Source of the DNA: Begonia masoniana
Lineage: Eukaryota; Streptophyta; Magnoliopsida; Cucurbitales; Begoniaceae
Assembly: GCA_022432975.1 (NCBI GenBank)
Contig: CM039512.1
Coordinates: 30,231,574 to 30,295,573 of the forward strand
Length of the DNA: 64,000 bases
Reading direction: 5' to 3'
Shown here: positions 14,276-60,133 of the stretch, piece after piece
Numbering within the stretch: the stretch's first letter is position 1
How the letters are laid out: every line of letters starts with the position of its first letter
The notes under the pieces: generated by a model
Databases searched by the model: none
Told to the model about the DNA's origin: nothing
The model's input: only the letters and a program-made list of their open reading frames with translations
Made by a program: the position numbers and the translations under genes

Positions 14276-14792
14276 TGCATTCTTCTCTTGCTCGATTCCT
14301 GCTTTCTTCTCTTCCCCATATTTTTACATGCTCTCTGGAATTTGAATTTCCAGAGAGCTTTCCTCTTTCATTTCACCTCCCCTGTACATATCCACTTCTA
14401 CAGAATTAACATTTTCTTCAATACTTCAACCCCATTTTAAACATAGTTAGTTTTCCTAAAAACAAACGCGTTGATATATTTAAAACTATATTTTTTCTCC
14501 TGTTTTAAAATGTCCAAGCAGTTTATAAAAACAGGATTTCAAAACGTTTAAAACATGTAAACATAAACCTATCAACTATCAGTTCTCAAACATCCTAAAA
14601 TGTTCTAACTGTACAATTACTTTTTCTAATCTACCATCAGCCCAAAACGGCCAGATACCCTCAAAACACGTACATACTTCCCCACGGGTCTGGTTAAGCA
14701 TCGACTGCGCAGCACACTGCCGCAAGCCATCCCCCGTCAACTGTATCACTCCTCAGGTGGAGGGATCTCGTCCTCACCTAAGTCAAGATCAC

Positions 14793-15830
14793 CTACACCA
14801 TACAAACAAACTATGAGATAACAATCTCAGCAAGTCTCGTAAATGTAGATGCGTGCAGATGCGTGCAGTGCGTATGTCATTCATAAAACATGCAGATAAC
14901 AGATTCAGATTCATTACGTCGCAGACAGATTGTCACCGAGGCCTAAACTCACCTCGTCGTGACCAGATAATAGATTATGTAGATTTTGTTGGTTCATTTT
15001 ACTTTTTAATTAGGTCGCAGACAGAATGTCACCGAGATCTAAACCACCTCGCCGTGACCAGATAACAGATTACGTAGATTCATTTCGTTCGTTGGTTCAT
15101 TTTACTTTTTAATTAGGTCGCAGACAGAATGTCACCGAGGGCTAAACCACCTCGCCGTGACCAGATAACAGATTACGTAGATTCATTTCGTTCTCTTAAA
15201 CACATGCTTTAACAGACGTGTTGCATGAGCAGTCAAATACATAAAGTAAACAACCAGGATGTGTACCATCAAGACGATAAACAAACATAACCTATAAACG
15301 ACTAACCTAACTACCCAACCAAAACAATTTAAACAAACGCATCACCAAAACTCCTCGAGACGACTTCGACGTACAGTGTAGGCTAATCGGCCAGAGAAGA
15401 TCACGAGAACTTACCTCGTGTCCGTTGCAGCTCAAGCTCCGTCCACGAGCGTCGTTCACCTAAGGCAATTCAGAACGATCGACGTTAAAACGAGTTTAAG
15501 TTACGAAACGTCCAAATTTAACAAAACCTTAACTAAGGGAATTCCCAAAAGTTCTAACTTAACTAATCGAGGCATATCGACGAACAATTTACGATTTATA
15601 CTTTGAAACAACAATTAACGAATTTTTTCCTAAAACCTGAAAATTCTCAAACTTTAACATTCGTCCCAAATCAATTAAATTTGTCCAATACATTCACTAT
15701 ATCCTTAATTATGGAAAACCTATCAATTTTGAACCTTAAATCACGATTTCTAACAAAACCTAAATGAAACCTCAATTGTTTAAACTCCGTAAAAATCGAA
15801 ATAAACTTTCCTAAAACCTTAGAATCGTAC
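14793..15830 (-). other. Predicted two-intron leader module in LTR Q2
   Basis: Minus strand: intron 1 is 15830-15460 (CCTAG|GTACGATT ... CTTAG|GTGAACG), the mini-exon 15459-15415 (45 nt), intron 2 is 15414-14793 (CACGAG|GTAAGTTC ... GGTGTAG|GTGATC). The hairpin GGCC-GATT-AGCC is at 15392-15381. Confidence 0.58.
14918..15190 (-). repeat. Tandem repeat of about 96-103 bp, nearly 3 copies
   Basis: Units start GTCGCAGACAG at 14918, 15014 and 15117 and share TGTCACCGAG and ACCAGATAA. They fall in predicted intron 2 of Q2. Confidence 0.85.
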
Positions 15831-22538: not shown

Positions 22539-24344
22539 TGTAACGACCCCATTAGGGTCGAGACTGATTCTTAATTTTCATAAATCATTTACACTAAGTT
22601 TACCCTCTGTATTTTTTTTTAATATAACTCAAGGACAATGCCATATCTGACAAAACTGATCCCTTCAAAAACTCGGCTCCCTCATAAAACTATCGACACA
22701 GTCAGTCACAAAGTCGATCGACATGACTCAGACATCGGTTCCATAACGTGTTCGGGCAGAAGGAAAGTTCCCTCGGACCACTCGACTTCATCATTCGCGG
22801 GCTGCATGGATTTGCACACATCTACTGATAGGAACACATTCTCCGAATGTCACGTGCATTCCGCGTGATTCAGTATGTAACACCCAGAAATTTCCTATTA
22901 CGTGCGTAACCTAGGGTATGCTAAGTATGTGAATTAAGGTTTAGAAACAATGTAAAATAAATAAAAGGGTTGACAAGCCAAAAGAACGAAGGAGGAGATT
23001 TGCACATTTCATGGGTTGAAAAGTTAAAATATACATGAACCAATAAGAGACAAGTATAAAGTCAAAATGTGGTGAGAGGGAGAGTTAGATCACGTTGGAC
23101 TCCATGGAAAACAAAATGGAAGAAAAGTGGTTTGACCATTCAAACCAAAGGGTTTGAAAAGTCAAATGTTGTGCAAATCAACCAATAGGAATTTTACATG
23201 AAATAATTGAATGGAAAAAGTGGGAATGAAAAAGAAATCACGTTGGAAGACATAAGGGAAAGTAAAGTGGGGTGAGTTTGTAATTTTAAAAGGTTTGGAG
23301 GAGAAAATTTAAAAGAAAGAAAAGGGGAGGATTTAATGGCTTGAATTTCCTTTCTTTTCTCCCACCTTCTTCCTCACGGTTTTTCTCCCAAGCCCTCATC
23401 CTCCATAGCCGACTTCTCCTCTCCCCATTCTTCCATTTTCAAGGTGTTTTCAAGGTTAGTTTTAGTGGGTTTTTAGTTGTATACCATTAGATGTTAGTTT
23501 GTGGTGTTTTTATGGTAGTTTAGTGAGGTTTGGTTAGGGTTTGGAAAACCCTAACCATGGAATCCGAAAATTGGGTTCCAATGTTGGATTTCTTTCCTAT
23601 TTGGATCATTTAAGTGTTGAATGGATGATTTAGGTTGTTTGGGTGATTAAATTAAGGATTTGATGGAAGTTACACAAAAACCGGTTTAAGAACACTATAG
23701 GGCCGATTCTGTCTTTGGTATTTTCGGGCTGACCAAAGTGTTTTTTTGATTAATTTAGGCATTTCAATGGATAGTAGACGTGTAGAGGTTTCCGAGTTGG
23801 GGTGGCACGTCGAAATCCGTTGAAAAACGAGGGAGTTATGATCGTTTGAAGTTTGACGGTCAAATTGGGTACAAAATCGGGTTTTGTGGTTTTTGGTTTA
23901 ATTGTGGTGTAGTTTTGGTTAGTTTAGGTTTAGAAATTTCTTAGAGTTTATTGGTGACTTATCAATTTAAGTTTTCATCATTTTAGGTTGTTGAGCGGAT
24001 AATTGATCGCTAGAAGTGTGCAACTACAAATTCGAGCGGACAGGTAAGTAGTGGATGTTATTCTTTTGCCTTCGGGCCTACACCAGAGAACGGTAGGGTT
24101 TATTTGTTATTGCTTTTCTTCGTGTTACGTTGAATTAATTATGTTGCTTTGGGATTGCGTGGAGTTGCTTGTCTTGTTGGTTGATTGGTCTTGTGTTGCA
24201 TTGTTTGGCCGTGTGGTGTTATGTGGTCGTGTTGTGTTGTGTCATATTGTTGCGTTTAGTCGTCGTGTTGTGTTGTATTGTGTGGTGTGGTTTGGCCTTG
24301 CTGTTGTGTTGTCGTCGTGTGTGTGTGTGTGTGTGTGTGAAAAA

Positions 24345-25523: not shown

Positions 25524-25761
25524 ATTGGTTGTCGGTGTTGTTTGTTTGTTGGTTATTGCTTGAGTATTGTGTGAGTGTGGTGTGCGTTGTGAATGTTTAT
25601 ATTCGTTCTTCATTACTTGCTAAGCTTAAGCTTACGTGTGTGTGTGTTCTGTGGTGTAGGTGACGACAGGAGTACAGATTAGAGCTACGAGGAAAGCTAG
25701 GATTGGGACGCAGTCGTTGATGTACGATGTATGCCGATGAGGGCAGTTGTCGGGGCGTCTC

Positions 25762-28523
25762 TGTGACGACCCCAAACCCGATCAGGGCCGCCACGGACTT
25801 GCCGTGACATAATCATTTCCTAAGCTCTCGTATTTTTCGCATAAACTTTTTCATTTTTTTACTTTAAACATAACCCAAAACCCTTAAACAAACTAACCCT
25901 AACGTAACCTTAACTTTAAACTCTCGTAACCACGTAAATTTTTCTTTTTATATCACTTATAACGTTTCGACTTCTAAACCATTAAATCGAAGTCTCGGAT
26001 TGTTGAAATCCCTTAAAATCACTCATTCCTCAATCATCAAAACAGTACACTAATCTAACCTACAATTTCGAACAAATTCAAGAAATCGAACTGCGTGGAT
26101 CGCTCTAAAAATCGAGCGTATCCTTACCTGTTTTAAAATAACTAAACAGTTCAAAACACCCAAACAGTTCCAGTATATTCTCCAAAATAAAGACTTCACA
26201 TTCTAAACAATCTACTACCACTACATATACATCAAAACTCAACCTTTCATACGTTTTTCTATCAATTCATCCGATCCACATACTTAAGCATTTTCATACT
26301 CTTACTCAAACAAAACTGAATCAAATCCTCAAACAAACATTAATAATAAAAGTAGAATTTCTTTAAAGCATCACCAAAACGAACACGTCACCAAAACATT
26401 CAAAGCGACTCAACTCCAAGCCTACATCCTATTTACGATTCCTAAACATCAAACTTCTCCACATATTCTAAAATCCCTCACGTTTTTAACATTAAAATAA
26501 GTTTACATCAATTACCCAAAATTGCTCGGAGCACAACCGTGGTCATCGAACCTTGCCAAAACACACCCCGTCGCCACGAGCACCATCCATCGACCGCCTA
26601 CTCTTTGTCATCGAGTTCACACCTGTCACCTACATCATTCAACATATACATTAAGCCTAAGGCTTAGTAAGGGGATGCACTATATGAATTTAAAACATTT
26701 TGCTTAACATATGTAGTTTCTACAGTTTCATCGTACATAATCATTTCGTTTCGTTTCGTCATTCATGTTCGTTTCGTTTCGTTTCATCATTCATAATCGT
26801 TTCGTTTCGTTTCATCATTCATATTCGTTTCGTTTCTATCATACATACATGTAATCCTCTACCAATGGAGGGCGGATTAGTTTCTCCATCTCTAGACGTT
26901 CCACATATAAATCTTTACCTGAAGGGTGAACCACTTCCTTCAGATATCATACATTTTCTAGACGTTCCACAATCTACATCTGAAGGGTGAACCACTTCCC
27001 TCAGACACTTTACATTTTCGTTTTACATCGTTGTCGTTTCTACGTTTAAATCGTGAAATCATATGCTAAAACATTTTCGTACATTTTCTAAAACATGATG
27101 CATGAGGGATCTATATACGACATATCATCAAAACATATCCTCAAACAATTCACAACATACATAGACATATACTATTCTCAACAGACTTCTCAAACAACTA
27201 ACATTCTAAGCTACCCGACTCATTAATCCCCACAATCAGAAAATCATCATCAAAATAGTAAAGCCTAACGTTGCCACGATGTAGGGCCTTAAGGGCCGGA
27301 AACCTAACATCCACTTACCTGGCGTCCTGGTTATGCCGAGCACCGTCCGTAAAGTCGTCTCCACCTAAAGCATTTCACAATTAAGAACATTAAAATCGAT
27401 CCTAATTAAACTAACTTCAAACTTAAACTAATCTCCTAATTAAGGAAATTCTTTCCTAAAACTTCCATTTTCTCATTCGGGCATAACTAAACTCTCATTT
27501 TTGTGAAAACATCTTAAACTACTATTTCTAGCCTAATCCAATTAAAACCTAATTAAATGGGCCACTAATTTGGGTTCGGTAAAAACCGACCTAAAACTCA
27601 AACGCGCGTAACTTTTGCGTCGGTTATCGGAATCGAACGATTCCAGCGGCCACGTACTCCTCTAATAACCTATTTTAATCTGCCAAAATGAATTTTAAAA
27701 CAAACGAACGGAGCTAGGTCAATTTGTCAAAAACCCGATTTTGCCCCTTTTACCTAAAATTTCACTTTTTCAATTTTTCATCAAAACTCTCTCAATTCCT
27801 CACTAATCTATCCTCCTAACATCCAATTAACATAAACTAACCTAAAATCGGAGTTCCAATTCAGCAAAACCCGAGTGCCCTAAATCGGGCTTCACTATTT
27901 TCAGCTCACATTGAGCTCAACACGGTCAATCAACAATAGCCGGCCTTAGAGTTGGCAAACCCACACCGGAAGTGACCGAAAACGGCCGGCGATCGGAGCT
28001 CAATCGAGCTCGCCACCGCCAGCCCCAAACCGAGCTGAAAAAGAGGGAGAAAACCGAGCCATACCGTCGGTTTAGTGCGCAAAAACGGTCGGAGCCTGCA
28101 AGTCGCCGTCATCTGGCCGGAAACCGCCGGCGTTCGTCGATCATCGCCGTTCTCCGCTCCTCGTCTCTCCCCTGTTCTCTCGGCGTCGCGAAGAACTGAA
28201 TGGCGTCGACGCCATTCAGTTATTTTATTTTTATAAAAACAATAATTATAATAATAATAATAATAATAATACTAATAACAATACTCCTATTAATTCCTAT
28301 TAACTCCTTTAATATACCATTTTATTCTTCCGTAAATTTCGTTAAATTTCGTTTTTAATTATGACCCGCGGCTTAATTTCACTGGAAGTGCCCGAATCTA
28401 AATTAATTAACCAATTAGGTTAACCAAAATTATTCACTTTTATTTTAAATTACTTAAAACAATTATTTTATTATTCTTTTACTTTCTCTCCAATTTTCCT
28501 TTTAAAAATTCCTGGGCGTTATA
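25762..28523 (-). mobile_element. Solo LTR S2 (S-like family), nested in S1
   Basis: A 2762-bp sequence starting TGTGACGACCCC and ending GGGCGTTATA, flanked by the exact TSD GTCTC (25757-25761 and 28524-28528). The terminal C to T change (TATA for TACA) is probably a point mutation. It contains TTTCGTTTCGTTTC-type repeats at 26745-26840 and a repeated GAAGGGTGAACCACTTCC at 26920-26999. Confidence 0.9.
26630..27365 (-). other. Predicted mini-exon and intron 2 in LTR S2
   Basis: Minus strand: acceptor CTTTAG|GTGG at 27365, mini-exon 27364-27319 (46 nt), intron 2 from 27318 (CCAG|GTAAGTGG) to 26630 (GATGTAG|GTGAC). Branch-like CTTACTAAG lies at 26671-26663. The hairpin GGCC-CTTAA-GGCC is at 27297-27285. 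The donor of intron 1 is uncertain. Confidence 0.55.
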
Positions 28524-29175
28524 GTCTCGACCATGGTCTTCGGAAAGATGTGGCTGGAACAGTATTTTGGGTCGTGTATAATTTACATTTATTTTGGTGG
28601 TTTGTAGAGTTTGTCTTTTGGTTGATGTTTTGTATAGCTAATTGTAATTGTTGTATATAGTCATAGGTCAGGGTGATATGTTACCCTATATTGGGGGATT
28701 TTCTTTATTTTGGTAGATAGCATTTCTCGACGATATGTTGGTTGTTGGAGATTTCGTAGGTTGGTTAGATAATTAGGAATATTCTGGACTGGTTGAGAAT
28801 TTATTCGTTTGCAGGTACCTAGCATTTTAGAGGCGCCATTTTCAGGCGTTACTTTGCCGAAATCTCGGAAGGACGCCGTGGTGCTTAAAGGTTAAGATTA
28901 AGGGAAATTACGAAGTCTAGACAGCTAGGTATTATATAAGTGGGCGTCGGGAGATTTAGCTTTAAATTCTTATGTGTCAATGTTATTTTAAATTAAGCTT
29001 TAACGTGGGATTGGTTAGCTAAGTAGCGCTCCGAGCCAGGGTGGGTTCGGGGGCGTTACACAGTAGACGTCGCCCAGTAGAAGGCATCATCCGATGGACA
29101 CGAGCGTTTCACGTTACTCATGGACATCGCCCGGTGGAAGGCATCATCCGATCACAAAATGACAAGACTTAATAC

Positions 29176-29545
29176 TCACTTCTTCCGATAGCGAAAACAT
29201 CTACATCTACCGGTTGACATGTGAATCACACGTGACATATTAAGCATCATCCGATAGAAGACCTCTACCGGTGAATAAGAAATTCCTAGCATCTGCCGAT
29301 AGTGATAATCAGCATCTACCGATTGACATGTACATCGCACGTGACATATAAGCATCATCCGATAGAAGACCTCTACCGGTTAATAAGAAATTCCTAGCAT
29401 CTGCCGATAGTGATAATCAGCATCTACCGATTGACATGTGCATCGCACGTGACATATAAGCATCATCCGATAGAAGACCTCTACCGGTTAATAAGAAATT
29501 CCTAGCATCTACCGATAGTGATAATCAGCATCTACCAGTGGCAAC
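29176..29545 (-). repeat. 108-bp tandem repeats with G-box motifs in the Gypsy-5 3' LTR
   Basis: Three units spaced 108-109 bp, marked by GTGACATAT at 29232, 29341 and 29449. The first has CACGTG-containing TCACACGTGACAT; the others have GCACGTGAC. Each also carries ATCTRCCGATAG and TCTACCGGT. A matching, slightly degraded block is in the 5' LTR at about 48535-48880. Confidence 0.85.
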
Positions 29546-29912
29546 ATCTACGAAACGAGACATCCTGACTTTCACAGACCTCAACTTGACTAAAATAAGA
29601 TTGCACAAGTATGAATCATAGACTCATCCAGAATACGTGTAGCGGAAGACTTAAATAGAACATAAATCATTCTATCTTCTCGTGATCATTCTTAAACTTA
29701 GAAATCCAGCCAAACAAATCCCAAAATCTATCGTGTTAAGAAAATCCCTTCCTACTTAATTTCAGTATGTATTATTCTTACTAACATCATGAGAGCAGAA
29801 ACCACGGGTCATTCTCGCCTTTCCAGCCACAATCTGTCACCCTGAACACCATCCAGCAACCAGTCTTAGACATCCTCACTGAATTTGGAATCCTCACTTG
29901 ATAGTTCTTCAC

Positions 29913-30836
29913 CTACATCATAAGGTTTAAACTATAATCATTTCTCATTAGTAAGGAGTGCAATATTAACATGTATACATGAATGCACAGTTGAAAAGAA
30001 CACATTTACATAATCATTTCTCATTACATTCTTGTTCATGTTCTTGTTCATCGTTTACATCATATTCTTGTTCATCATTTACATCATGTGGATTAAGGGA
30101 GGATTTGTCCCGAAAAGGGGGTTGACAGTGAAGGTGTACATAGTCCCTTGCGGGCCGTATTCATGGTCCTCCTTTTGGACAGTGACATATGCCAAACTGC
30201 CCCCAACCCTCTTTTAATCCTTGTTACATAAGTTTCATGTTCATATCTTGATCGTGAAGAAAAACATGCACTTAAAACATTTTCATATGTTCGAAAAGGA
30301 AAACGATCATGAAGCATGAGTATGAGTACTCTCATTTCATCAGACTAAAAGGACAGCTCATTCATTCATCAAAAGATCATACTATCAACTCTAGTATCAT
30401 AACCAAACAGACAATAGCACAGATAACCTTTAAACATTGTAAACATCATCTACCTAGTACCCTTGTGATGTAGGGCCTTAATGGCCAGGAATCTTACTCA
30501 CTCACTTACCTGGTTTCCTTAGCAAACTCGAGCACTTCTTCTCAGACTTCTTTACCTAAAATATTTCACATTACAGAGTTAAACAAAATCCTAAAATTTC
30601 TAACCAAAAGTAATCCTAGAATCTAACATCTATATTTCTAAATCTTCTTGGTCAAGCACCTTGAGTGCGTAGATTAAACTTCCTGAACCTAAAATATCCA
30701 GATTCAACTTAGTAACTAACCACAGATTACAAATGCCACTATTATTACTCGGCCAATGATGAATCCGAAACTACGAGTCTTAGCTGAAAACAGAGCTCTA
30801 AGTAACTAACCAACAACTATATTGTCTAAGTCTTAC
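29913..30836 (-). other. Predicted two-intron leader module, Gypsy-5 3' LTR
   Basis: Minus strand: intron 1 is 30836-30556 (CCAG|GTAAGACT ... TTTAG|GTAAAG), the mini-exon 30555-30510 (46 nt), intron 2 is 30509-29913 (CCAG|GTAAGTGA ... GATGTAG|GTGAAG). The hairpin GGCC-ATTAA-GGCC is at 30486-30474. A TATAAATA box is at 31011-31004, about 160 bp from the LTR start. Confidence 0.6.
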
Positions 30837-31171
30837 CTGGAGCGTGGATTATCGGGGTGGAGACTGAAGAATCGATTGTCGATGGAGGAGTAGCTGGCCG
30901 AGAGAGAGGGAGAGAGGAAGAGCTCTGGAGAAGAGGGAAATCGCCGAGAGAGGAAATGTCGGCTACAGTGGGGTTTAATGAGGTTTAAGGATTTTCCATT
31001 TCTTATTTATACTAATTAAAATTCATCTTAATTACAATTGTGCCACCCAACCTAGTTTCACACTACTTGGAATTCAATAAATCAGGCATTAATTTAAAAC
31101 AAAAAGGTTGATAAAAGGTGGCAGTTAAATCAGTTAAGAAAATCACCTGGCTGAAATTGTCGGGTGTTACA

Positions 31172-32557: not shown

Positions 32558-32939
32558 GAAGATGTAATGACCCGGGAAGGATCGCCACGTAATTCATGAC
32601 TTTACTCACTCCTTTCACTCTTTTATATATTCTTTTTTTTTACTAAGCAGCGGAAATACTAATTCTGTAGTCACGTGTAGGACATGGACAATGAATAAGA
32701 CATTTGGATGGGGGATTTTTAAAAAAAGACATCTGCCGAACTCAACGACAAAACTTCACTCTCATCTGCCGATCACTAAACGACAAGGCAGGAGAGGGCT
32801 CACATCTACTGATAAACCAAAGCTACATCTTCCGGTTATCCCGTGCATTTCACGTGATTCATTAATCACCCATCGGTAGATGTAAGTTCTCACATTAACC
32901 GACAGTCACGTGTATCCCACACAATTCATTAAACGTTCG

Positions 32940-33320
32940 TCGGCAGATATACAACCGCATCTGCCGATGACGTCAGCCGGCAGATAATCAAACCGCGTCT
33001 GCCGATGTCGTCAGCAGGAGGGTATATAAACTACATCTGCCGATGACGTCAGTAGGAGGGTATATAAACTACATCTGCCGATGACGTCAGTAGGAGGATA
33101 AACAAACTGTATCTGCCGATGACGTCAGCAGGAAAAATATACAAACTACATCTACCGATGACTAGGCGACAGGGAAAAAGACTCCTACATCACCCGATAT
33201 AAACACACTGTATCTACCGACAGAAATCTCACTACTTCTACCGATAGCAAAAGAAATCCTGCGTCTACCGATAGAAAACACACCACTCCTACCGGTAGGA
33301 CTAAACAACATCTCCCAATA
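32940..33320 (-). repeat. Array of CATCTGCCGATGACGTCAG and related motifs
   Basis: Five copies of ATCTGCCGATGACGTCAG or close, then looser TCTACCGATAG and TCTACCGACAG copies. At 32959-32985 the arms ATCTGCCG and CGGCAGAT form a perfect 8-bp inverted repeat around TGACGTCA. The same block is in the 5' LTR at 42800-43120. Confidence 0.88.
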
Positions 33321-33663
33321 GACATGATCATAAGCAAGTCTCAAACTTTCCAGACTTAACATTTCTATAAACAGAAATCAATGATTCCCTCAGAGTACCT
33401 ATAGCGGAAGTCTTAAACAAAAGATATTCAATAAATTGTACCATCCTCAATTCAGTAACCAACCAGACAATTTCAAATCCCAGTACCATAACACAACTTC
33501 ATTCCATTTATACTTCTATATTAAAAATCATTACTAACGTTCATAGAGCATAAACCAGAGTTTCCATCACCATCCAGCCACAGACTTGCACCTTGAACAC
33601 CATCCAGCAGCCAGTCCTAAACATCCTCATTGATCTTGAAATCCTCACCTGAATGTTCTTCAC

Positions 33664-34714
33664 CTACATCATAAGGTGTAACTGTAAGCCTAAGGCTTAG
33701 TAAGGAATGCAATACTATCACGAGTGCATGAATGCATAATTCAGAGAAAACATGCTCATAAATCATTTCTGGTTCATGTTCTTGTTCGTATTCATCATTC
33801 ATAATCATAGATCGTATTCATCTTTCATATCATTGTTCATATCGCTGAACCACATTCATCATTCGTATCATAGTTCATATCGCTGAACAATCTTCATCAT
33901 TCATATCATTGTTCATGTTGTGTGGGATGAGAGAGGATTTGTGCCGATAAAGGGGGTTCGACTGTGAGTTTGATCATGGTCCCTACTGCGGGTCGTATTC
34001 TTATGTCCTACTGCAGACTGTGACATATGCCGAACCGCCACCAACCCTCACTCATCCACGTTGTAGGGATTTTATCACCTTATCTTGTTCCTGAGAAAAC
34101 ATGCTTTTAAAACATTTTCGTGTGCATAAATCATTGATAATGCATGAGCATGGGATTCTTTATCTCATCCTAGCTATAGGACAAAACAATCATTCAGTGT
34201 GAAAACTTACCATCGAACTACTCATCAACATAAATGCTAGACAGTAACATGAAAGAACTACTGATCATCGTATGAGTTTCTACCTAGCATCCTTTGATGT
34301 AGGGTCCTATTGACCGGGAAACCTATACATTCACTTACCTGGTCTCCTTAACACTTTGAGCTCTTTCTCTTCAAACTTCTTCACCTAAAACATTCACATT
34401 GCAGTAGTTAAAACAAAGTCCTATAAGTTCTAACCTCAAGTCATCCTAGGGTCTAATAGACAAAGCCATCCTGAATCCTTAGTCTAACGCTCTGTGCAAA
34501 ATCTGAAATCCAAGAACTGAAATAGACAGATTCGACTACCGGTTACTCAGGGTTGATTGTTTTTAAATGTCCAAAACTGATTCGGAATGACATTACCACT
34601 CTCAGATTAACAATGAACTATATTATTACCCTGTTGTTTAAGGATTTGAGTTACGGGTTCAAGCTGAAAACAGAGCTAAACGATTAACTGATAACTACAT
34701 TGTCTAACTCATAC
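33664..34714 (-). other. Predicted two-intron leader module, Gypsy-6 3' LTR
   Basis: Minus strand: intron 1 is 34714-34385 (CTCGAG|GTATGAG ... GTTTTAG|GTGAAG), the mini-exon 34384-34339 (46 nt), intron 2 is 34338-33664 (CCAG|GTAAGTGA ... GATGTAG|GTGAAG), branch-like CTTACTAAG at 33704-33696. The hairpin is GGTC-AATAG-GACC at 34315-34303, a paired change from GGCC...GGCC. Confidence 0.62.
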
Positions 34715-35038
34715 CTCGAGCGTAAGGTAACCGAGAAATAGCAAGGGAACTGGTCGTCGAAGGAAGGATTACAGGCAGGCAGAGGGCGAGAGCTTGCGAG
34801 AGAAGGAATCGCCGAGAATGGAGGATGTCGGCTACAGTGAGTTAATGAGGTTTAAATCATTTCCACTTCCTTTAAATATCGGTCTAAGCCCTCTATTATT
34901 ACAACTTTGCCACTCGGCCTAGTTTAAACCCACATGTAATTAGTTACACTTGTCTTAAAATTCTAAACCGCGAAGATTAAATGTTCATGACCGTTAATAC
35001 AGTTAGGAAAATTACCTAGTCGTAACTCGGGTGTTACA

Positions 35039-36698: not shown

Positions 36699-37727
36699 GT
36701 ATGAAATGGACAATGTAGTCATTCATTAGTAAATAGAGCTCTGTTTTCAGCTCGGCACTGAGTTCGGATATTTTTAGCAGTGGCCGAGTAGCTTTAGACT
36801 TTTTAAAATCTGAGAGTAGAAATGTCATCCCGAATCGATTCTGAGCATTTTAAGTAACCAACTCGGATTTAATCAATGGTAAAACCTGTCCACCTAGTTC
36901 CGGATTTCAGACTGCAGTGTGTCAACAGAGGAATCGGAATGACTTTAGCTATTAGATCCTAGGATGGTTTATGATTAGGACTATTAGGACTTTGTTTTAA
37001 CTACTGTAATGTACATGTTTTAGGTGAAGAAGTTTAAAGGAAAGAAGCTCGGATTGCTAAGGAATCCAGGTAAGTGAATGTGTTAAGATTTTCGGCCACT
37101 AGGGCCCTACACCGCAAGGGTATTAGGAAATCACTGAAATGTTAACTTGTTGACTAGGATTTGTTATTTCCACGACATGAAGAAGTTGTGTAAGTAAATG
37201 TAAAGTTACAGGATGTTCTACTTGTCCTTATGGTATGACTTTTCTCTGTGAACCTCATGTCTATGCATTATGCCCACGTTTATGATTAAGTAGAGAACAT
37301 GAAAAGTAAATGTAACCATAATTAAGTGCAGAACGGGGAAAAGACTATGCTATGTATGACTCGCGAATTCTCCCACTGGTGGAGGCCGAGTAATGATATG
37401 TATGACTCGCGAAATCTCCCACTGGTGGAGGCCGAGTTAATGATATGTATGGCTCGCGAATTCTCCCACTGGGGAGGCCGAGTGATGTATCATGATTGCC
37501 GCGATAGGCAAATGATTATGTACGACTGCCGCGATAGGCAAATGACTATGTACCCCAGTCTTCCTCCCTCGTTCCCTGCCTTAATACATGTTATGTAAAG
37601 GATAAAGATGAACATGAATGAAGAATGGTTTATGAACTTATGTCCCTTTAAATTGTGTACTCATGTATATCTGTCAGCATGCATTCCTTACTAAGCATTA
37701 GGCTTATAGTTAAACCTTATGGTGTAG
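36699..37727 (+). other. Predicted two-intron leader module in LTR R
   Basis: Intron 1 is 36699-37023 (CCCGAG|GTATGAAA ... GTTTTAG|GTGAAGAAG), the mini-exon 37024-37069 (46 nt), intron 2 is 37070-37727 (TCCAG|GTAAGTGA ... GGTGTAG|GTGAAGAAG). The branch-like CTTACTAAG at 37687-37695 lies 32 nt from the acceptor. The hairpin GGCC-ACTAG-GGCC is at 37094-37106. Clearest copy of the module. Confidence 0.65.
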
Positions 37728-38090
37728 GTGAAGAAGGTTCAGGTGAGGATGTTATGTTCAAAGAGGATGCTTAAGGCTGGTTGCTGGAGGATGCTCAAGG
37801 TGACAGTGCGGGACTGGAGAGGCGATTTATGACCCCTGGTTAAGACTCTTATGTTACAGTATGTTAAAGAATATGGTAGTTTAAGTAGGATGAGATTATT
37901 TAAAACGTTGAGCTTTGAAACTGTCTAGTGGATCACTGAGTCAGGGAATGATTATATAGATTTATAAATGGTCAGTTGCTTAAGTCTTCCGCTATATGCA
38001 TTTTGAATGAGTTGTGTTTTCTTTCTGTTGGAAGGAGTCATTTGATGATTTAGAGTTCTCTACCGTAAGACGGAAGCTGGAAGAGGTAGT

Positions 38091-40050: not shown

Positions 40051-42318
40051 TTAACATTTAGATAACTTGGCATACAGTTGATGCTGTTTCAGGGTTGTCA
40101 AAACTATCCTTAAGTGTTCTGCATGGTCAGCTTCTGTCTGCGAGTATATAAGAATATCATCTATAAACACAATTACAAATTTGTCCAAATACTCACGAAA
40201 CACTCGATTCATTAAGTCCATGAAGGCTGCAGGTGCGTTGGTCAACCCGAACGACATCACCAGGAATTCATAATGTCCATAACGGGTGCTAAAAGCTGTC
40301 TTAGGTATGTCACTTTCCTTAACCTTCAGTTGGTAATACCCCGAACGTAAATCTACTTTTGAAAACACTTTTGCTCCTTGCAGTTGGTCAAACAAATCAT
40401 CAATCTGGGGCAAGGGGTACTTGTTCTTAATCGTCAGTTTGTTCAATTCTCTGTAATCTATGCACATCCTCAAAGAACCATCCTTCTTCTTGACAAATAA
40501 GACAGGCGCACCCCAGGGAGAGCTACTAGAGCGTATGAATCCCTTGTCTACTAACTCCTGTAATTGGACTTTTAATTCTTTTAATTCGACAGGTGCCATA
40601 CGGTAATGATTTTTAGACACAGGTAATGCCTCGGGATATGTATCAATTACAAACTCTATTTCCCTATCAGGTGGTAATCCTGGCAAATCGTCCAAGAATG
40701 CTTCAGGGAACTCTCGGACTATATAAATATCTTGTAGCTCTATCTTATTCTTCGCTCGGGTATCCATTACACTAGCTAGATAACAATCACAACCATCTTT
40801 CAATATCCGTTGAGCCTCTAGTGAAGTTATAATTGGCATTTTACTTATTTTTGGGATAGCTTGGAAGGTATAACGATCTCCATTTGGGGGTCGGAACTCT
40901 ACTAATCCAGACCTACAACTTATCGTGGCATAATGCCTGGATAACCAATCAATCCCTAATATCACCTCATACCCCTTCATGTCAATTACAACCAGTTCTA
41001 CATATAGTTTCTTACTTCCTAAGGTCACAACATCACCTTTAACAATTTGTTCAGAATGTAGGGACTTCCCCGATGGTAACATAACATCATATGACCTTTC
41101 GGCTAGTAGAAGTTCTAAGTTGTGTCGGCATACAAACAGAGTTGATATAAACGAGTGTGTAGCTCCCGTATCAATAAGCGTGTAAGCAGAAATACCACAG
41201 ATCATTATTGTACCTGTTATGACCGTATGCTGCATGGTTTCTTCATCTTCCATCATTGCATAGACTCTAGGTGCTACCCTTGCACGGTTTGGGTCTGGCG
41301 GCATGGGGCAATCTCTGGCTATATGTCCAACTTTGTCACACCTGAAGCATCGGCCGGAATGCAGCTTGCACTCACCATGGTGGTTCTTCTGGCAGTTGGG
41401 GCATAGAGGGGCCAATGGTCGTTTTCCCTTCCCTTGGTCATCATTTGGATTGAAGGGTCTCTTTATACCTTGCTGTTGTTGCTGTGGCCCTCTGTTCTGT
41501 TGTGGCTGCCATCCTTTGTTCTGACGGGGTGGCGGCTGAGTTTCCTTCGTGAACTTCCTTGGTTGCTCACGCTGTGCATGTGCTGTCATCTCAGCCTCTT
41601 CCAGCTCCAATGCCTTAGCCGTCACTTCTCCATAAGGTACATTGTGTATCCCAGCAGTCTTTACTTTCACGTACAAACTCGGCTTTAGTCCTTGAACAAA
41701 TTGGTAAATCTTGTCCTCATCATCCACAATCATTCGAGGGGCAAATCGTGACAAGGCATCAAACTTGCATATGTAGTCCGTCACAGAGCCCGTTTGTCGT
41801 AGATTCATGAACTCCTTCTTCTTGTTGGCCCGAACAGTCCTATTAAAGTACTTGTCAAAGAAAGCAACCTTGAACATTTCCCAGGTCATAGCTCCGGCAT
41901 TAGCGGTGTTCTGGATCGAATCCCACCAATGCCTTGCACCCAATTCCAAATGAAAGATAGCGTACGCGACCTTATCTCCTTCATCAACCTTTACATACTT
42001 GAACATATCTTCTATCTTTCGGATCCATTCCTCAGCATAAATGGGATCTGAAACATGTCCATTAAATACCGGGGGTCGAAGCCAGTGAAAACGCTCACCC
42101 CCATGATCATGAGTTGCATTATTACTGGAGTTGCCTTGCTCCTCCTTAGCAGTCATCAGTTGTTCAATCTGGTGAGATTGGCGCATGACCAACTCTGTCA
42201 ACTGAGCAATGGTATTGCTATCTTCATTGGTTTCTCTCTGCTGACCTCTAACCATATTGGGGTTCCTAAACACATAGTTATAGATACATCTTAACTTAGT
42301 GACATTTACTGAAATCAT
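40051..42318 (-). CDS. Gypsy-6 gag-protease-RT open frame (755 codons)
   Basis: Longest retrotransposon frame in the window. The likely start is Met22 (42255), [14 protein letters not shown], as in Gypsy-5 ([14 protein letters not shown]). Domains: gag core at about residues 90-195 ([29 protein letters not shown]); Gln/Pro-rich linker about 250-300; CCHC zinc knuckle C324, C327, H332, C337; protease DTG at 383-385 ([10 protein letters not shown]); RT from about 590 ([32 protein letters not shown]) to the intact metal-binding FIDD at 718-721. The frame ends at a TAA after LSKC where the family has Glu, which removes RNase H and integrase. Translation of gag and protease is conceivable; transposition alone is not. 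Confidence 0.88.
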
Positions 42319-42402: not shown

Positions 42403-42414
42403 GCTCTGATACCA
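42403..42414 (-). promoter_or_regulatory. Primer-binding site of Gypsy-6
   Basis: The minus strand reads TGGTATCAGAGC, a perfect 12-nt match to the initiator tRNA-Met 3' end, 4 nt inside the 5' LTR. Confidence 0.95.
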
Positions 42415-42418
42415 TAAT

Positions 42419-44858
42419 TGTAACGACCCAGGAAGGATCGTCACGTAATTCATGACTTTACTCACTCCTTTCACTCTTTTATATATTCTTTTTTTTTTTA
42501 CTAAGCAGCGGAAATACTAATTCTGTAGTCACGTGTAGGACATGGACAATGAATAAGACATTTGGCTGGGGGATTTTTAAAAAAAGACATCTGCCGAACT
42601 CAACGACAAAACTTCACTCTCATCTGCCGATCACTAAACGACAAGGCAGGAGAGGGTTCACATCTACCGATAAACCAAAGTTACATCTTCCGGTTATCTC
42701 GTGCATTTCACGTGATTCATTAATCACCCATCGGTAGATGTAAGTTCTCACATCAACCGACAGTCACGTGTATCCCACACAATTCATTAAACGTTCGTCA
42801 GCAGATATACAACCGCATCTGCCGATGACGTTAGCCGGCAGATAATCAAACCGCGTCTGCCGATGTCGTCAGCAGGAGGGTATATAAACTACATCTGCCG
42901 ATGACGTCAGCAGGAGGATAAACAAACTGTATCTGCCGATGACGTCAGCAGGAAAAATATACAAACTACATCTACCGATGACTAGGCGACAGGGAAAAAG
43001 ACTCCTACATCACCCGATATAAACACACTGTATCTACCGACAGAAATCTCACTACTTCTACCGATAGCAAAAGAAATCCTGCGTCTACCGATAGAAAACA
43101 CACCACTCCTACCGGTAGGACTAAACAACATCTCCCAATAGACATGATCATAAGCAAGTCTTAAACTTTCCAGACTTAACATTTCTATAAACAGAAATCA
43201 ATGATTCCCTCAGAGTACCTATAGCGGAAGTCTTAAACAAAAGATATTCAATAAATTGTACCATCCTCAATTCAGTAACCAACCAGACAATTTCAAATCC
43301 CAGTACCATAACACAACTTCATTCCATTTATACTTCTATATTAAAAATCATTACTAACGTTCATAGAGCATAAACCAGAGTTTCCATCACCATCCAGCCA
43401 CAGACTTGCACCTTGAACACCATCCAGCAGCCAGTCCTAAACATCCTCATTGATCTTGAAATCCTCACCTGAATGTTCTTCACCTACATCATAAGGTGTA
43501 ACTGTAAGCCTAAGGCTTAGTAAGGAATGCAATACTATCACGAGTGCATGAATGCATAATTCAGAGAAAACATGCTCATAAATCATTTCTGGTTCATGTT
43601 CTTGTTCGTATTCATCATTCATAATCATAGATCGTATTCATCTTTCATATCATTGTTCATATCGCTGAACCACATTCATCATTCGTATCATAGTTCATAT
43701 CGCTGAACCATCTTCATCATTCATATCATTGTTCATGTTGTGTGGGATGAGAGAGGATTTGTGCCGGTAAAGGGGGTTCAACAGTGAGTTTGATCATGGT
43801 CCCTACTGCGGCTCGTATTCTTATGTCCTACTGCGGACTGTGACATACGCCGAACCGCCACCAACCCTCACTCATCCACGTTGTAGGGATTTTATCACCT
43901 TATCTTGTTCCTGAGAAAACATGCTTTTAAAACATTTTCGTGTGCATAAATCATTGATAATGCATGAGCATGGGATTCTTTATCTCATCCTAGCTATAGG
44001 ACAGAGCAATCATTCAGTGTGAAAACTTACCATCGAACTACTCATCAACATAAATGCTAGACAGTAACATGAAAGAACTACTGATCATCGTATGAGTTTC
44101 TACCTAGCATCCTTTGATGTAGGGTCCTATTGACCGGGAAACCTATACATTCACTTACCTGGTCTCCTTAGCACTTTGAGCTCTTTCTCTTCAAACTTCT
44201 TCACCTAAAACATTCACATTACAGTAGTTAAAACAAAGTCCTATAAGTTCTAACCTCAAGTCATCCTAGGGTCTAATAGACAAAGACATCCTGAATCCTT
44301 AGTCTAACGCTCTGTGCAAAATCTGAAATCCAAGAACTGAAATAGACAGATTCGACTACCGGTTACTCAGGGTTGATTGTTTTTAAATGTCCAAAACTGA
44401 TTCGGAATGACATTACCACTCTTAGATTAACAATGAACTATATTATTACCCTGTTGTTTAAGGATTTGAGTTACGGGTTCAAGCTGAAAACAAAGCTAAA
44501 CGATTAACTGATAACTACATTGTCTAACTCATACCTCGAGCGTAAGGTAACCGAGAAATAGCAAGGGAACTGGTCATCGAAGGAAGGATTACAGGCAGGC
44601 AGAGGGCGAGAGCTTGCGAGAGAAGGAATCGCCGAGAATGGAGGATGTCGGCTACAGTGAGTTAATGAGGTTTAAATCATTTCCACTTCCTTTAAATATC
44701 GGTCTAAGCCCTCTATTATTACAACTTTGCCACTCGACCTAGTTTAAACCCACATGTAATTAGTTACACTTGTCTTAAAATTCTAAACCGCGAAGATTAA
44801 ATGTTCATGACCGTTAATACAGTTAGGAAAATTACCTAGTCGTAACTCGGGTGTTACA
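42419..44858 (-). repeat. 5' LTR of Gypsy-6
   Basis: TGTAACGACCCAGG...GGGTGTTACA, 2440 bp; pairs with 32563-35038. Confidence 0.95.
43484..44534 (-). other. Predicted two-intron leader module, Gypsy-6 5' LTR
   Basis: Minus strand: intron 1 is 44534-44205, the mini-exon 44204-44159 (46 nt), intron 2 is 44158-43484. All splice-site bases are the same as in its 3' LTR. Confidence 0.62.
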
Positions 44859-47144: not shown

Positions 47145-47975
47145 ACCTTTCTGCTGTTGCTACGGTCCTCTATTCGGTTGTGGTTGCCAACCTCTGCCCT
47201 GGCGCGGTGGTGGCTGAGTCTCCTTGATAAACTTCCTTGGCGGTTCACGTTGTCCTTGTCCTGTTAACTCAACTTCTTCCAATTCCAAAGCCTTAGCTGC
47301 CACTTCAGAATAGGGTATGTTATGGATCCCCGCAGTCTTCACTCCCTGAAAGAGGCTCGACTTCAGTCCATGGACAAACTGGTGAATCTTGTCTTCCTCA
47401 TCATCCACCAGACGGGGTGCAAACCTGGACAAGGCCTCAAACTTACAGATGTAGTTAGCCACAAAACCGGTTTGGCGCAGCTGCATAAACTCCATCTTTT
47501 TGCTGGCCCGAACCGCTCAGCTAAAATACTTGTCATAAAAGGCCGTCTTGAACCACGCCCAAGTCATAGTTTCCGCATTCGTAGTGCTCTGAATTGAGTC
47601 CCACCAATGCCTTACACCCAATGCAAGATGAAAAACAGCACAAGTGACCTTGTCCCCTTCATCGACCTTGGCATACTTGAACATGTCCTCAATTGTCCGA
47701 ATCCACTCCTCAGCATAAATAGGATCCGAAACTTGACCATTGAATACAGGAGGTCGAAGGCGATGAAAATGCTCGCTTCCATTGTCGTGAGTCATATTGG
47801 AGCTAGAATTCCCTTGCTTATCCCTAGCAACCACCCACTGCTCAATTTGGCGAGAATGGCAAATAACCAACTCGGTTAGCTGAGCGATGGTGTTACTATC
47901 CTCATTGCTCTCTCTTTGTTGACCTCTTACCATTTTGAGATTCCTAAACAAGTAATCATAAACACATCTTAACAT
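47145..47975 (-). pseudogene. Gypsy-5 gag (broken)
   Basis: Likely start at the internal Met of [10 protein letters not shown] near 47930. Segment 47975-47517 contains [22 protein letters not shown] and FYDKYFS, then a TGA where Arg is usual. Segment 47495-47160 continues with MEFMQLRQTGFVANY, FAPRLVDDEEDKI and a Gln/Pro-rich tail, then a TAG where Gln is usual. Both changes fit C to T transitions. Confidence 0.87.
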
Positions 47976-48079: not shown

Positions 48080-48091
48080 CTCGGATACCAT
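48080..48091 (-). promoter_or_regulatory. Primer-binding site of Gypsy-5
   Basis: The minus strand reads TGGTATCCGAGC, one mismatch from the initiator tRNA-Met site, 3 nt inside the 5' LTR. Confidence 0.9.
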
Positions 48092-48094
48092 AAT

Positions 48095-50497
48095 TGTAAC
48101 GACCCCATTAGGATCGAGACTGATTCTTAATTTTTGTAAATAATTTACACTAAGTTTACCCTCTGTATTTTTTTTTAACATAACTCAAGGACAATGCCAT
48201 ATCTCACAAAACTGATCCCTTCAAAAGCTTGGCTCCCTCATAAAACTATCAACACAGTCAGTCACAGAGTCGATCGACATGACTTAGACATCGGTTCCAT
48301 AACGTGTTCGGGCATAAGGAAAGTGCCCTTGGACCACTCGACTTCGTCGTTCGCGGGCTGCATGGATTTACAGACATCTACCGATAGGAACACATTCCCC
48401 GAATGTCACGTGCATTCCGCGTGACTCAGTAGACGTCATCCAGTAGAAGGGATCATCCGATGGACACGACAAAGCATAATTACTGAGATCATCCGATCAC
48501 AAAACGACAAGACTTAATACTCACTTCTTCCAATAGCGAAAACATCTACATCTACCAGTTGACATGTGAATCACACGTGATATATTAAGCATCATCCAAT
48601 AGAAGACCTCTACCGGTGAATAAGAAATTCCTAACATCTGCCGATAGTGATAATAAGTATCTACCGATTGACATGTACATCGCACGTGACATATAAGCAT
48701 CATTCGATAGAAGACCTCTACCGGTTAATAAGAAATTCTTAGCATCTGGCGATGCTGATAAAGCATCTACCGATTGACATGTTCATCGCACTGACATATA
48801 GCATCATCCGATAGAAGACCTCTACCGGGTTAATAAGAAATTCCTAGCATCTACCGATAGTGATAATCAGCATCTACCGGTGACAACATCTACGAAACGA
48901 GACATCCTGACTTTCACAGACCTCAACTTGACTAAAATAAGATTGCACAAGTATGAATCATAGACTCATCCAGAATACATGTAGCGGAAGACTTAAATAG
49001 AACATAAATCATTCTATCTTCTCGTGATCATTCTTAAACTTAGAAATCCAGTCAGACAAATCCCAAAATCTATCATGTTAAAAAAATCCCTTCCTACTTA
49101 ATTTCAGTATGTATAACTCTTACTAACATCATGAGAGCAGAAACCACGGGTCATTCTCGCCTTTCCAGCCACAATCTGTCACCCTAAGCACCATCCAACA
49201 ATCAATCTTAGACATCCTCACTGAATTTGGAATCCTCACCTAATAGTTCTTCACCTACATCATAAGGTTTAAACTATAAGTCTAATGCTTAGTAAGGAGT
49301 GCAATACTAACATGTATGCATGAATGCACAATTGAAAAGAACACATTTACATAATCATTTCTCATTACATTCTTGTTCATCGTTTACATCACGTTCTTGT
49401 TCATCATTTATATCATGTGGATTAAGGGAGGATTTGTGCCGAAAAAAGGGTTGACAGTGAAGGTGTACATAGTCCCTTGCGGGCCGTATTGATGGTCCTC
49501 CTTTTGGACAGTGACATACACCAAACCGCCCCCAACCCTCTCTTAATCCTTTTTACATAAGTTTCATGTTCATATCTTGATCGTGAAGGAAAACATGCAC
49601 TTAAAACATTTTCATATGTTTGAAAAGGAAAACGATCGTGAAGCATGAGTATGAGTACTCTCATTTCATCAGACTAAAAGGACAGCTCATTCATTCATCA
49701 AAAGATCATACTATCAACTCGAGTATCATAACCAAACAGACAATAGCACAGATAACCTTTAAACATTGTAGACATCATCTACCTAGTACCCTTGTGATGT
49801 AGGGCCTTAATGGCCAGGAATCTTACTCACTCACTTACCTGGTTTCCTTAGCAAACTCGAGCACTTCTCCTCAGACTTCTTCACCTAAAACATTTCACAT
49901 TACAGAGTTAAACAAAATCCTAAAAGTTCTAATCAAAAGTCATCATAGAATCTAACATCTATATTTCTAAATCTTCTTAGTCGAACACCTTGAGTGCGTA
50001 GATTAAACTTCCTGAACCTAAAATATCTAGATTCAACTTAGTAACTAACCACAGATTACAAATGCCACTACTATTACTCTGCCAATGATGAATCCGAAAC
50101 TACGAGTCTTAGCTGAAAACAGAGCTCTAAGTAACTAACCAGCAACTACATTGTCTAAGTCTTACCTAGAGCGTGGATTGTCAGGGTGGAGACTGAAGAA
50201 TCTATCGTCGATGGAGTAGCTAGCCGAGAGAGAGGGAGAGAGGAAGAGGTCTAGAGAAGAGGAAAATCGTCGAGAGAGGAAATGTCGGCTACAGTGGGGT
50301 TTAATGAGTTTAAGGATTTTCCATTTCTTATTTATACTAATTAAAATTCATCTTAATTACAATTGTGCCACCCAACCTAGTTTCACACTACTTGGAATTC
50401 AATAAATCAGGCATTAATTTAAAAGCAAAAAGGTCGATAAAAGGTGGCAGTTAAATTAGTTAAGAAAATCACCTGGCCAAAATTGTCGGGTGTTACA
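48095..50497 (-). repeat. 5' LTR of Gypsy-5
   Basis: TGTAACGACCCC...GGGTGTTACA, 2403 bp, uninterrupted. Carries the CACGTG/CCGATAG repeats at about 48535-48880 and the TATAAATA box at 50336-50329. Confidence 0.93.
49255..50165 (-). other. Predicted two-intron leader module, Gypsy-5 5' LTR
   Basis: Minus strand: intron 1 is 50165-49885, the mini-exon 49884-49839 (46 nt), intron 2 is 49838-49255 with branch-like CTTACTAAG at 49296-49288 and hairpin GGCC-ATTAA-GGCC at 49815-49803. Confidence 0.6.
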
Positions 50498-58457: not shown

Positions 58458-59110
58458 GTTTCACAGAACACTTACCAAATTCATAAAATTTCCTGAAGAC
58501 AGAATGGACTACTACCGTGGACGACATCCATAAACTTATAAAATCCCGACTACTTAACAGATTTCCAGAGAGCTTAACTTCCTCTCTGGAATTCGCTTCT
58601 TCTTAACATTTACAGAAACACCAGAAATCCTCAAAACATTTACTCACTTCCTCAACCACCAAATGTATCAACCTGAAACATATCCTATTTCTTCCACAAA
58701 CACCACCCCAAAACCGACTCGAGACATAATTAAAACAAAACACGTTTCCACAAAAACAAACCGCGTGGATAGCTCTAAAACTCGAGCGTATTTCTGCTCA
58801 ACCTAAAACATCTCTAAACACTTCCATATAGATTTCAATAAAAGTTTAACAAAACAATTTATAAAAACAGGTTTACCAAAACATCGAAATATCAAAATAT
58901 AAACCTATCACTATCCAGAACCAAACACCCTAAAATGTTTCTATACAACCATCAGCCCGACAATTCCCAAAAAGCCCTCAAAACACCTAACCATGAGTCC
59001 CACAGGTCAAAATGCGCCTCGACTGCGCCAGCACACTCCCGCAATCATCCTCCGTCAACCGCATCACTCCTCAGGTGGAGGGATCTCGTCCTCACCTATG
59101 TCGAAGTCAC

Positions 59111-60133
59111 CTACACCATACAGACACACTGAGATAAAAATCTCAGTAAGGCTGGTAAATGTAAATGCATGCTGTGCATATGAGTTCATAAATTGTGCAA
59201 ACATTTCTTATCTTTACATCGTGGGTGTCACCGAGATCTCAACCCCCTAACCGGAGAGGGCACGTCCAGCAGTCGGACTACCCTTCCCACCTAGAGGAGG
59301 GGGGTACACGCTTACAACACGTACAGCCGTGCCTGAGCCCCATCTCGCATGACCATAACATACATGAGTTCATATTAGATGCGGTATTGTGACAGACCCG
59401 CAATCGATCTACACAATAGATCAATAGCCCCTCTCTAGGCCGCATTGCCATTTTCTTTAAAACATAGTGCGGAAATTCCTTTTCATGCTCTTTTAAAATA
59501 CGTGATGCGTGAATAATTTATAACATAATTTAAACATGCATCATACGTACCATCAAGATAATAAAAGCAATTAAAGGCATAACCTATAAAACAACTAAAC
59601 CTAACTACCCAACCAAAACAATTTAAACAAACGCGTCACCAAAACTCCTCGAGACAACATCGACGTACGGTGTAGGCCAATAGGCCAGAGAAGATCACGA
59701 AAACTTACCTCGTGTCCGTTGCAGCTCAAGCTCCGTCCACGAGCGTTGTTCACCTAAGTAATTTCACCAAATTGTCGTTAAAACGAGCTTAAACAATTTA
59801 ATGCCCAAACTAACAAAATCCTTAACTAAGGAATTTCTCCTAGAGCTATAACTCAACTAATTGAGGCGTTTCAACAACCAATTCGCGCTCGATACCACGA
59901 AACATCCATTTACGAGCTTTCCCCAAAATCCCCAATTTCTCAAATTTTAACACTTCTCACAATTCGATCTAACTTCATCCAATAACTTTCAATACGCCCT
60001 TTATATCCATAAACACGACATACCTATCAATTTCGAACTCTAAATCACGTTTTTAACGGAAACCCTAAACGAACCCTAACCGTCAAACTCCATGAAAATC
60101 GAAATACAACGTTCCAAAAGCATAGAATCATAC
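59111..60133 (-). other. Predicted two-intron leader module, Gypsy-7 LTR
   Basis: Minus strand: intron 1 is 60133-59754 (CCCTAG|GTATGATT ... ACTTAG|GTGAAC), the mini-exon 59753-59709 (45 nt), intron 2 is 59708-59111 (CACGAG|GTAAGTTT ... GGTGTAG|GTGACT), branch-like CTTACTGAG at 59150-59142, hairpin GGCC-TATT-GGCC at 59686-59675. Confidence 0.6.

Follow-up and report, generated by a model that had tools for sequence, protein, structure and literature searches.

What is the role of a small hairpin that recurs just downstream of a splice donor in the leaders of several plant retrotransposons? The question is raised by a 64-kb stretch of the Begonia masoniana genome (64,000 nucleotides, called the window here), in which nested Ty3/gypsy LTR retrotransposons lie beside a receptor-like LRR gene. 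A sequence-only reading of this DNA had described the hairpin, proposed from a compensatory change that it works as RNA, and compared it with retroviral packaging and dimerisation signals. Our analysis suggests that the hairpin belongs to a larger, long-range fold which likely hides the donor, keeping part of the RNA unspliced as genome, and we give this reading a probability of roughly 0.6.

The elements and their donor-hairpin sites

Domains of gag, protease, reverse transcriptase, RNase H and integrase identify the elements as Ty3/gypsy. Pfam matches above the cut-off were Retrotrans_gag, RVP_2, RVT_1 and Integrase_H2C2 in element G6 and RVT_1 and RT_RNaseH in G5; rve was found only below its cut-off. 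SH3_Tf2-1 was found, and a chromodomain had no match in the pieces scanned. The clade is presumably Tekay/Del (plant chromoviruses), judged by overall likeness. Self-comparison places the G5 LTRs at 50497..48095 and 31171..29053, the latter continuing at 22875..22539 behind an insertion, and those of G6 at 44858..42419 and 35038..32563; element R is inserted at 36375. The insertion in the G5 3' LTR is S1 (22876-29052, with CAGTA on both sides), and S2 lies inside S1 in the opposite orientation, so that insertions are nested several deep. Q1, Q2 and G7 form one family, about 75% alike, and R, G5 and G6 are about 70% alike. The best local alignments of S2 to R, G5 and G6 cover the donor-hairpin module and end after the donor at +41/+42 of S2 (+43 to +45 of the partner). 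For Q1, Q2, G7 and S1, the alignments tested outside their own family were not above the best of 20 shuffles.

Several other features of the window were seen. Tandem repeats in the R and G6 LTRs (38087-38605, 32953-33162 and 42811-42982) have a common TGACGTCA core beside a CATCTGCCGA-type stretch. The LRR gene (54528-56162) consists of two open pieces in one frame, split by 33 bases with stops; its best named relatives are from flowering plants, and for the second piece the best relatives listed (Manihot, Populus and others) are about 50-57% identical. Adjoining it, 61 copies of a 25-bp unit (56818-58348) are open in several frames and look like a minisatellite rather than a protein. A search of viral contigs by protein found no relatives of the elements. 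By pattern, one viral-contig site reads as a chance match and 34 genome-contig loci, all with bacterial titles, were taken as chance.

Direct reading of the window confirms all ten donor and hairpin sites that had been claimed in LTR copies. The donor G is at 2472 (Q1), 24044 (S1) and 37070 (R) on the plus strand, and at 15414 (Q2), 27318 (S2), 30509 (G5b), 34338 (G6b), 44158 (G6a), 49838 (G5a) and 59708 (G7) on the minus strand, a and b being the 5' and 3' LTR copies. In each of the ten, a T-rich stretch comes after GTAAGT, then a GGCC-type hairpin (P1) and finally (C)TACAYC. The P1 loops had been given correctly (GATT, TATT, CTTAA, ATTAA, ACTAG and AATAG), as had the variants: GGTC-AATAG-GACC in G6, which is a paired change, GCC-TTCG-GGC in S1, and GGCC-GATT-AGCC, with one mismatch, in Q2. 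Donor plus hairpin patterns match six times in the window against a mean of 0.00-0.01 in dinucleotide shuffles, and a site model based on sequence only retrieves all ten at E<=1.2e-8, with the next match at E=0.4. The pair probability of P1 in its local context ranges from about 0.02 (S1) up to 0.96 (Q1). RNAalifold returned no pair on a first alignment of the ten copies, which had S1 misaligned, and none of 4227 Rfam families matched the window at gathering scores. By analogy the fold described below may work like a donor-sequestering retroviral leader; we claim no RNA-family membership for it.

The compensatory change reported for P1 is weak in the window alone, where one double change (G6) stands against one unpaired change each in Q2 and S1. 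Covariation from the window was therefore rejected and genome counts were needed, and these link both sides strongly. A wider search of the genome had been suggested, and patterns were counted on the assembly that contains the window (795,452,319 bases, 795 Mb). P1 with a 5-letter loop, GGCCN5GGCCNTACA, has 16,756 sites (8481+8275; reversed control 6, 1+5) and the GGTC/GACC double change 1,641 (control 9), about 18,400 P1 sites in total in one plant genome. Among 100 GGTC/GACC places listed the loops include ATTAG, AATAG, TTTAG, ATTAA and CTTAA. The one-sided forms are rarer, with 267 sites for GGTC/GGCC (U.G; control 11) and 347 for GGCC/GACC (C.A; control 5). With independent sides some 200 doubles would be expected, and the observed number gives an odds ratio of 297, which is inflated by common descent. 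Because the two single-change classes are similar in number, P1 itself cannot tell RNA from DNA.

Predicted long-range pairing with a downstream module

There are antisense matches to the CCTACAYC part of the site model about 0.6 kb downstream in 8 of the 10 window copies. In S1 and S2 the 3' partners were sought by pattern; S2 gave three candidates, and the one in the shared context was chosen. The partner reads GRTGTAGG and its R tracks the Y of (C)TACAYC: C is found with G in R, Q1, G7 and S1, T with A in G5, G6 and S2, and T.G in Q2. The outer halves of this predicted helix, P2, vary by family and stay complementary (AAGG/CCTT, TACA/TGTA, AGAAC/GTTCT and CAAC/GTTG). Within 2.5 kb, none of the nine window copies tested offers P2 a better partner, although the margin in G6 is only 0.3 kcal/mol, and the cognate pairing ranks 6 of 40,320 on the window copies alone.

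A second predicted helix, P4, pairs the donor GTAAG and about five following letters with NNNNN-CTTAC, located about 40 nt upstream of the P2 partner. Its extensions are GAATG/CATTC in R and G6, GAGTG/CACTC in G5, GGATG/CATCC in S2, CTCGT/ACGAG in Q1 and GUAAGUAGUG/CAUUACUUGC in S1. In a scan of 1,540 window pairs around both modules, P4 and P2 took the two highest ranks. A further hairpin, P3, sits between the two 3' strands, P4' and P2', giving the order donor/P4-P1-P2 ... P4'-P3-P2'. The order P4-P2-P4'-P2' was read in nine window copies and means that P4 and P2 cross, as do the two helices of an H-type pseudoknot. Their arms do not overlap, so both helices could form. The crossing pairs could represent a pseudoknot with a giant loop, alternating pairings, or pairing between two RNAs. 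When the whole stretch was folded as a single sequence, P2 was in the minimum-energy fold for Q1 only (1 of 9 window copies).

In R, on the plus strand, the donor and next bases form the predicted 5' strand of P4 (37070..37083), complementary to 37679-37691. They are followed by P1 (GGCC-ACTAG-GGCC, 37094..37106) and the predicted 5' strand of P2 (CCTACACC..AAGG, 37106..37119). Downstream are the P4 3' strand or 'anti-donor' (..CATTC CTTAC, 37679..37691), P3 (TAAGC-ATTAG-GCTTA, 37692..37706) and the P2 3' strand (CCTTAT GGTGTAGG, 37715..37728). On the same strand, Q1 has its 5' module (donor/P4, P1 and P2 5' strand) at 2472..2520 and its 3' module (P4', P3 with TGAGAT/ATCTCA, and P2') at 3038..3084, and S1, with P1 as GCC-TTCG-GGC, has them at 24044..24093 and, 1.6 kb downstream, 25611..25660. 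The remaining copies are on the minus strand, with 5' and 3' modules at 15366..15414 (P1 with one mismatch) and 14792..14839 in Q2; at 27269..27318 and 26629..26676 (outer P2 CAAC/GTTG) in S2; at 30459..30509 and 29912..29960 (P3 decayed) in the G5 3' LTR and 49789..49838 and 49254..49301 in its 5' LTR; at 34288..34338 and 33663..33709 in the G6 3' LTR and 44108..44158 and 43483..43529 in its 5' LTR (P1 GGTC-AATAG-GACC in both); and at 59659..59708 and 59110..59155 (P4 weak, -4.8 kcal/mol) in G7. The loop between the S1 modules holds tandem 23-bp repeats (24342-25020, 29 copies; 25285-25525, 10 copies), and the P4, P2 and P3 arms of S1 are still complementary despite these repeats and the 1.6 kb from donor to P2'.

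Two local pairings were discarded. One, in which the exon end and the T-rich stretch would form a stem around the donor, was attractive in Q and G6 but was dropped; cognate versus swapped arms gave 0.038 for 8 copies with sampled permutations and, for 6 families, 83 or 93 of 720. A closing stem of GGTGAAG at the microexon start with TACAYC, present in some folds, was replaced by P2, which has matched changes.

We examined the pairings in 90 copies, made up of the ten window copies and 80 genome copies from the first 100 5-letter-loop matches listed. The genome copies all come from contig C1, below 13.8 Mb, and those with diverse loops were taken first. They were chosen from GGCC/GGCC matches and therefore all carry an intact P1, and the rule used to find 3' modules itself demands P4' before P2'. 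The 3' module is present in 84 of the 90 copies and was not found in L044, L060, L065, L069, L070 and L095; those of L052, L058 and L114 are probably false, because their P3 does not pair. GTAAG is absent in L064, L066, L086, L095, L098 and L106, and 79 copies have both donor and 3' module. L064 and L106 (C1, about 12.04 and 12.11 Mb) have CTTACA in place of GTAAG, with P1 kept, and are possibly from a segmental duplication.

When the 3' sites were chosen blind to pairing (first CTTACT-like word, then GNTGTAG), 74 of the 79 copies gave a site, all in the same place. Cognate arms then paired better than swapped ones, with z -10.2 for P4 and -9.4 for P4 outside GTAAG (56 unique pairs each), -10.7 for P2 (59) and -4.0 for the outer part of P2 (53), and 0 of 20,000 permutations for each of the four measures. 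An earlier choice took the candidate with the best P2, hence leaning to P2, and gave z -10.5 for P4 and -9.5 for P4 outside GTAAG (61 unique pairs each), -10.4 for P2 (64) and -3.6 for outer P2 (58; 3 of 20,000 permutations). Since related copies inflate such tests, 520 window pairs were scanned in the same way as background (52 unique copies of the first 70). The mean z was -0.06 with an sd of 1.86, not 1, and the seven lowest z (-9.2 to -5.2) all overlap P4 or P2. Donor bases are thus complementary to a distant leader sequence, with matched changes.

The individual base pairs also vary in step. At P2 core position 5, the 84 copies (the three doubtful ones included) have T-A in 50, A-T in 13, C-G in 8, G.T in 8 and T.G in 1, with 4 unpaired. 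The P3 arms of the same 84 are TGAGC/GCTCA (30), TAAGC/GCTTA (28), TGAGT/ACTCA (11), TGAGA/TCTCA (3) and others (12); pair 5 is C-G in 60, T-A in 12, A-T in 3, T.G in 4 and unpaired in 5, and pair 2 is G-C in 45, A-T in 35, G.T in 1 and unpaired in 3. On a rough, noisy tree of upstream sequence (76 copies), P2 position 5 changed 18 times, P3 pair 5 14 times and P3 pair 2 three times. G.U pairs are commoner on the sense strand than on the antisense, both in P4 (48/623 vs 9/569) and in P2 (86/946 vs 27/835). For P4 the sense duplex is more stable than the antisense in 55 of 61 cases, and for P2, where site choice favours the sense strand, in 49 of 64; P4 without its GTAAG core is stronger in sense in 31 and weaker in 27 of 61, and G.U pairs are still 41 vs 9. 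This excess is what selection on transcribed RNA would leave. All 74 copies have 33-37 nt between CTTAC and P2', though up to about 75 was allowed, and the donor-to-P2' distance is 474-1609 (median 567.5; 76 copies).

The modules, their order, the narrow spacing of the 3' module and the matched changes are properties of the sequence itself. That the P4 and P2 helices form in RNA is suggested by arms that change in step across families. The case for an RNA structure is therefore stronger than the sequence-only reading had claimed, but its strongest evidence is in P4, P2 and P3, which that reading did not mention.

Predicted splicing anatomy of the leader

In 57 of 79 copies the donor is preceded, within the 38-62 nt range and at 42-57 nt, by an acceptor-like [CT]AG|GT site, from which we predict a microexon. 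In R this is 46 nt, between TTTTAG and GTAAGT by direct reading (37024..37069, plus strand). In G5 and G6 the gag ATG follows an acceptor-like TTTAG|GAA at a distance of 10 nt; the bases from the predicted acceptor up to the ATG are at 42255..42265 in G6 (TTTAG|GAACCCCAAT) and 47933..47943 in G5 (TTTAG|GAATCTCAAA), both on the minus strand. The predicted leader intron is 1895 nt with 90 ATGs in G5 and 1893 nt with 82 ATGs in G6, and it contains P1 along with the 3' module and primer-binding site. The last is at 42404..42414 in G6 (motif TGGTATCAGAG) and, with one mismatch, at 48080..48090 in G5 (minus strand). The microexon and the last 10 nt before gag have no ATG in G5 and G6. Exon 1, measured from a presumed start site 30 nt past a TATA-like box to a donor-like AG|GTA, has none in R and G5 and one in G6. 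With 82-90 ATGs in the intron, unspliced RNA looks an improbable template for scanning translation of gag, and after splicing the RNA would be without the primer-binding site, as this lies within the predicted intron. The claim that the hairpin is kept only in unspliced RNA fits this anatomy in G5 and G6, provided the predicted splice from donor to gag acceptor is used.

G6 and 15 of the 16 additional genome copies (L124-L139) carry a second GTAAGT roughly 60 nt ahead of the gag acceptor, and G5 has GTAGTG at this place; we therefore infer which donor joins the gag acceptor. In G6 and G5 this donor-like site belongs to a short intron-like stretch between the primer-binding site and gag, at 42328-42266 in G6 and 48004-47944 in G5 (minus strand). 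A genome search for the predicted spliced junction gave 78 matches. The 16 inspected (L124-L139) were all unspliced leaders with their own acceptors, TTGCCAG or TTGTCCAG before the same GAA and ending in CCAG, and were rejected as spliced genomic copies. The gag acceptor is thus variable (TTTAG in G5 and G6, TTGCCAG and TTGTCCAG elsewhere), while GAA and the gag start are kept, mostly because the search pattern fixes them.

A fold that may hide the donor

P4 covers GTAAG, which is most of what U1 reads. Bare-duplex estimates put P4 between -13.0 and -15.5 kcal/mol in 9 of the 10 window copies (G7, -4.8) and donor:U1 between -10.4 and -11.8 kcal/mol, so that P4 is predicted to be the stronger in 9 of 10; the -11.8 kcal/mol of donor:U1 is, however, reached by P4 in no more than 42 of 79 copies, among them 33 of the 69 from the genome. 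We propose that P4 would compete with U1 snRNP for the donor. A donor spliced to the acceptor before gag would yield a Gag message that lacks the primer-binding site and has at most a few upstream AUGs. If the downstream module were made and paired before U1 commits, the RNA would stay unspliced and keep that site. As transcription reaches the blocking module only some 0.6 kb past the donor, U1 binding would race against folding and would have the first chance, and P1 may stack on P2 and stabilise the junction. The fold may possibly have a second, putative use as a packaging mark. A more elaborate version, to which we would give somewhat under even odds, is a self-timed switch in which the pseudoknot locks the donor after about 0.6 kb, sorts transcripts into Gag message and genome, and then marks genomes for packaging.

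The sequence-only reading had likened the hairpin to packaging or dimerisation signals. Applied to the whole fold, such a role would have it mark unspliced RNA for Gag, or have P4 and P2 link two RNAs, with donor burial as a side effect. We consider this unlikely as the main role. The fold does lie within the predicted intron together with the primer-binding site, and HIV-1, in the portions of PMC4576207 used here, combines donor burial and packaging in one fold. The P4 and P2 arms could also pair in trans as well as in cis, but the P1 loops are not generally self-complementary and a dimer signal would not obviously require donor bases to be paired. A 4-letter palindrome is present in CTTAA, ATTAA and ACTAG and absent in GATT, TATT, TTCG and AATAG, and a kissing-loop dimer signal is for this reason not supported. 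Control of splicing is the better fit to the anatomy, since the donor would be buried in one of the helices.

The opposite effect on splicing, with P2 and P4 bringing the donor near a 3' splice site TGTAG|GTGA at the end of P2', seems improbable. End-to-end intron pairing promotes splicing in some yeast introns; here P2' ends in TGTAG, then GT in most copies listed, and CTTACTRAG about 35 nt upstream can be read as branch-point-like. Against this, the CTTAC is accounted for by P4 and the RAG by P3, the letters after TGTAGG are not constant (L047, L048 and L057), and donor and AG would both be inside helices, which should block them. U1 at a donor suppresses nearby poly(A) sites, and the modules are in both LTRs of G5 and G6. 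The fold might act mainly in the 3' LTR, hiding the donor from U1 and leaving polyadenylation there unblocked; as the explanation of the fold this is very improbable. It is barely credible that the leader holds DNA-level dyads (protein binding sites) by chance and no RNA structure. P1 is a dyad, with single changes about equal on both sides, but two crossing helices, one of them the splice donor, show matched changes between arms that lie about 0.6 kb from each other, and the G.U excess is on the sense strand.

A fold that hides the donor has a parallel in the HIV-1 5' leader, where the main donor is base-paired in the genome-form RNA (structure of Keane et al., reviewed in PMC4576207). According to the portions of that review used here, the donor likewise pairs with other leader sequence and spliced RNA cannot form the fold. 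In contrast with HIV-1, the element here is a plant Ty3/gypsy one, the partner is about 0.6 kb away in the LTR, and the fold is a predicted one of two crossing helices with one hairpin per module and a putative packaging role. Among plant LTR retrotransposons, barley BARE has two promoters, a 104-nt intron at the end of gag, and separate message and genome RNA pools for translation and replication, with splicing favouring Gag (PMC3735527, from the portions used). BARE is Ty1/copia, whereas the predicted intron here is in the leader and removes the primer-binding site. In the Ty3/gypsy element Ogre of pea and Medicago, partial splicing sets the proteins made, as splicing is predicted to do here, but the intron is between the gag-protease and reverse transcriptase coding parts, outside the leader, and the portions of PMC6317226 used describe no donor-masking fold. 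The palindromic repeat motifs of Sireviruses are also conserved dyads in plant retrotransposon non-coding DNA. They lie upstream of the TATA box, some near the env-like gene, and are likened to transcription elements; unlike the modules here they are repeated, and the portions of PMC2829016 used tie no splice donor or distant partner to them. We found no plant retrotransposon leader fold or donor lock in the open-licence literature searched.

For few plant LTR retrotransposons is it understood how RNA is shared out between protein and genome; in BARE two promoters play a part. If the reading that the fold hides the donor is true, a conserved donor-masking fold would act in cis to solve this problem for a very numerous element group, and would form a parallel to HIV-1 in a distant lineage. 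The question of how the RNA is divided would become testable with ordinary RNA data, and the two short modules in fixed order would serve as a mark for finding such leaders in other plant genomes.
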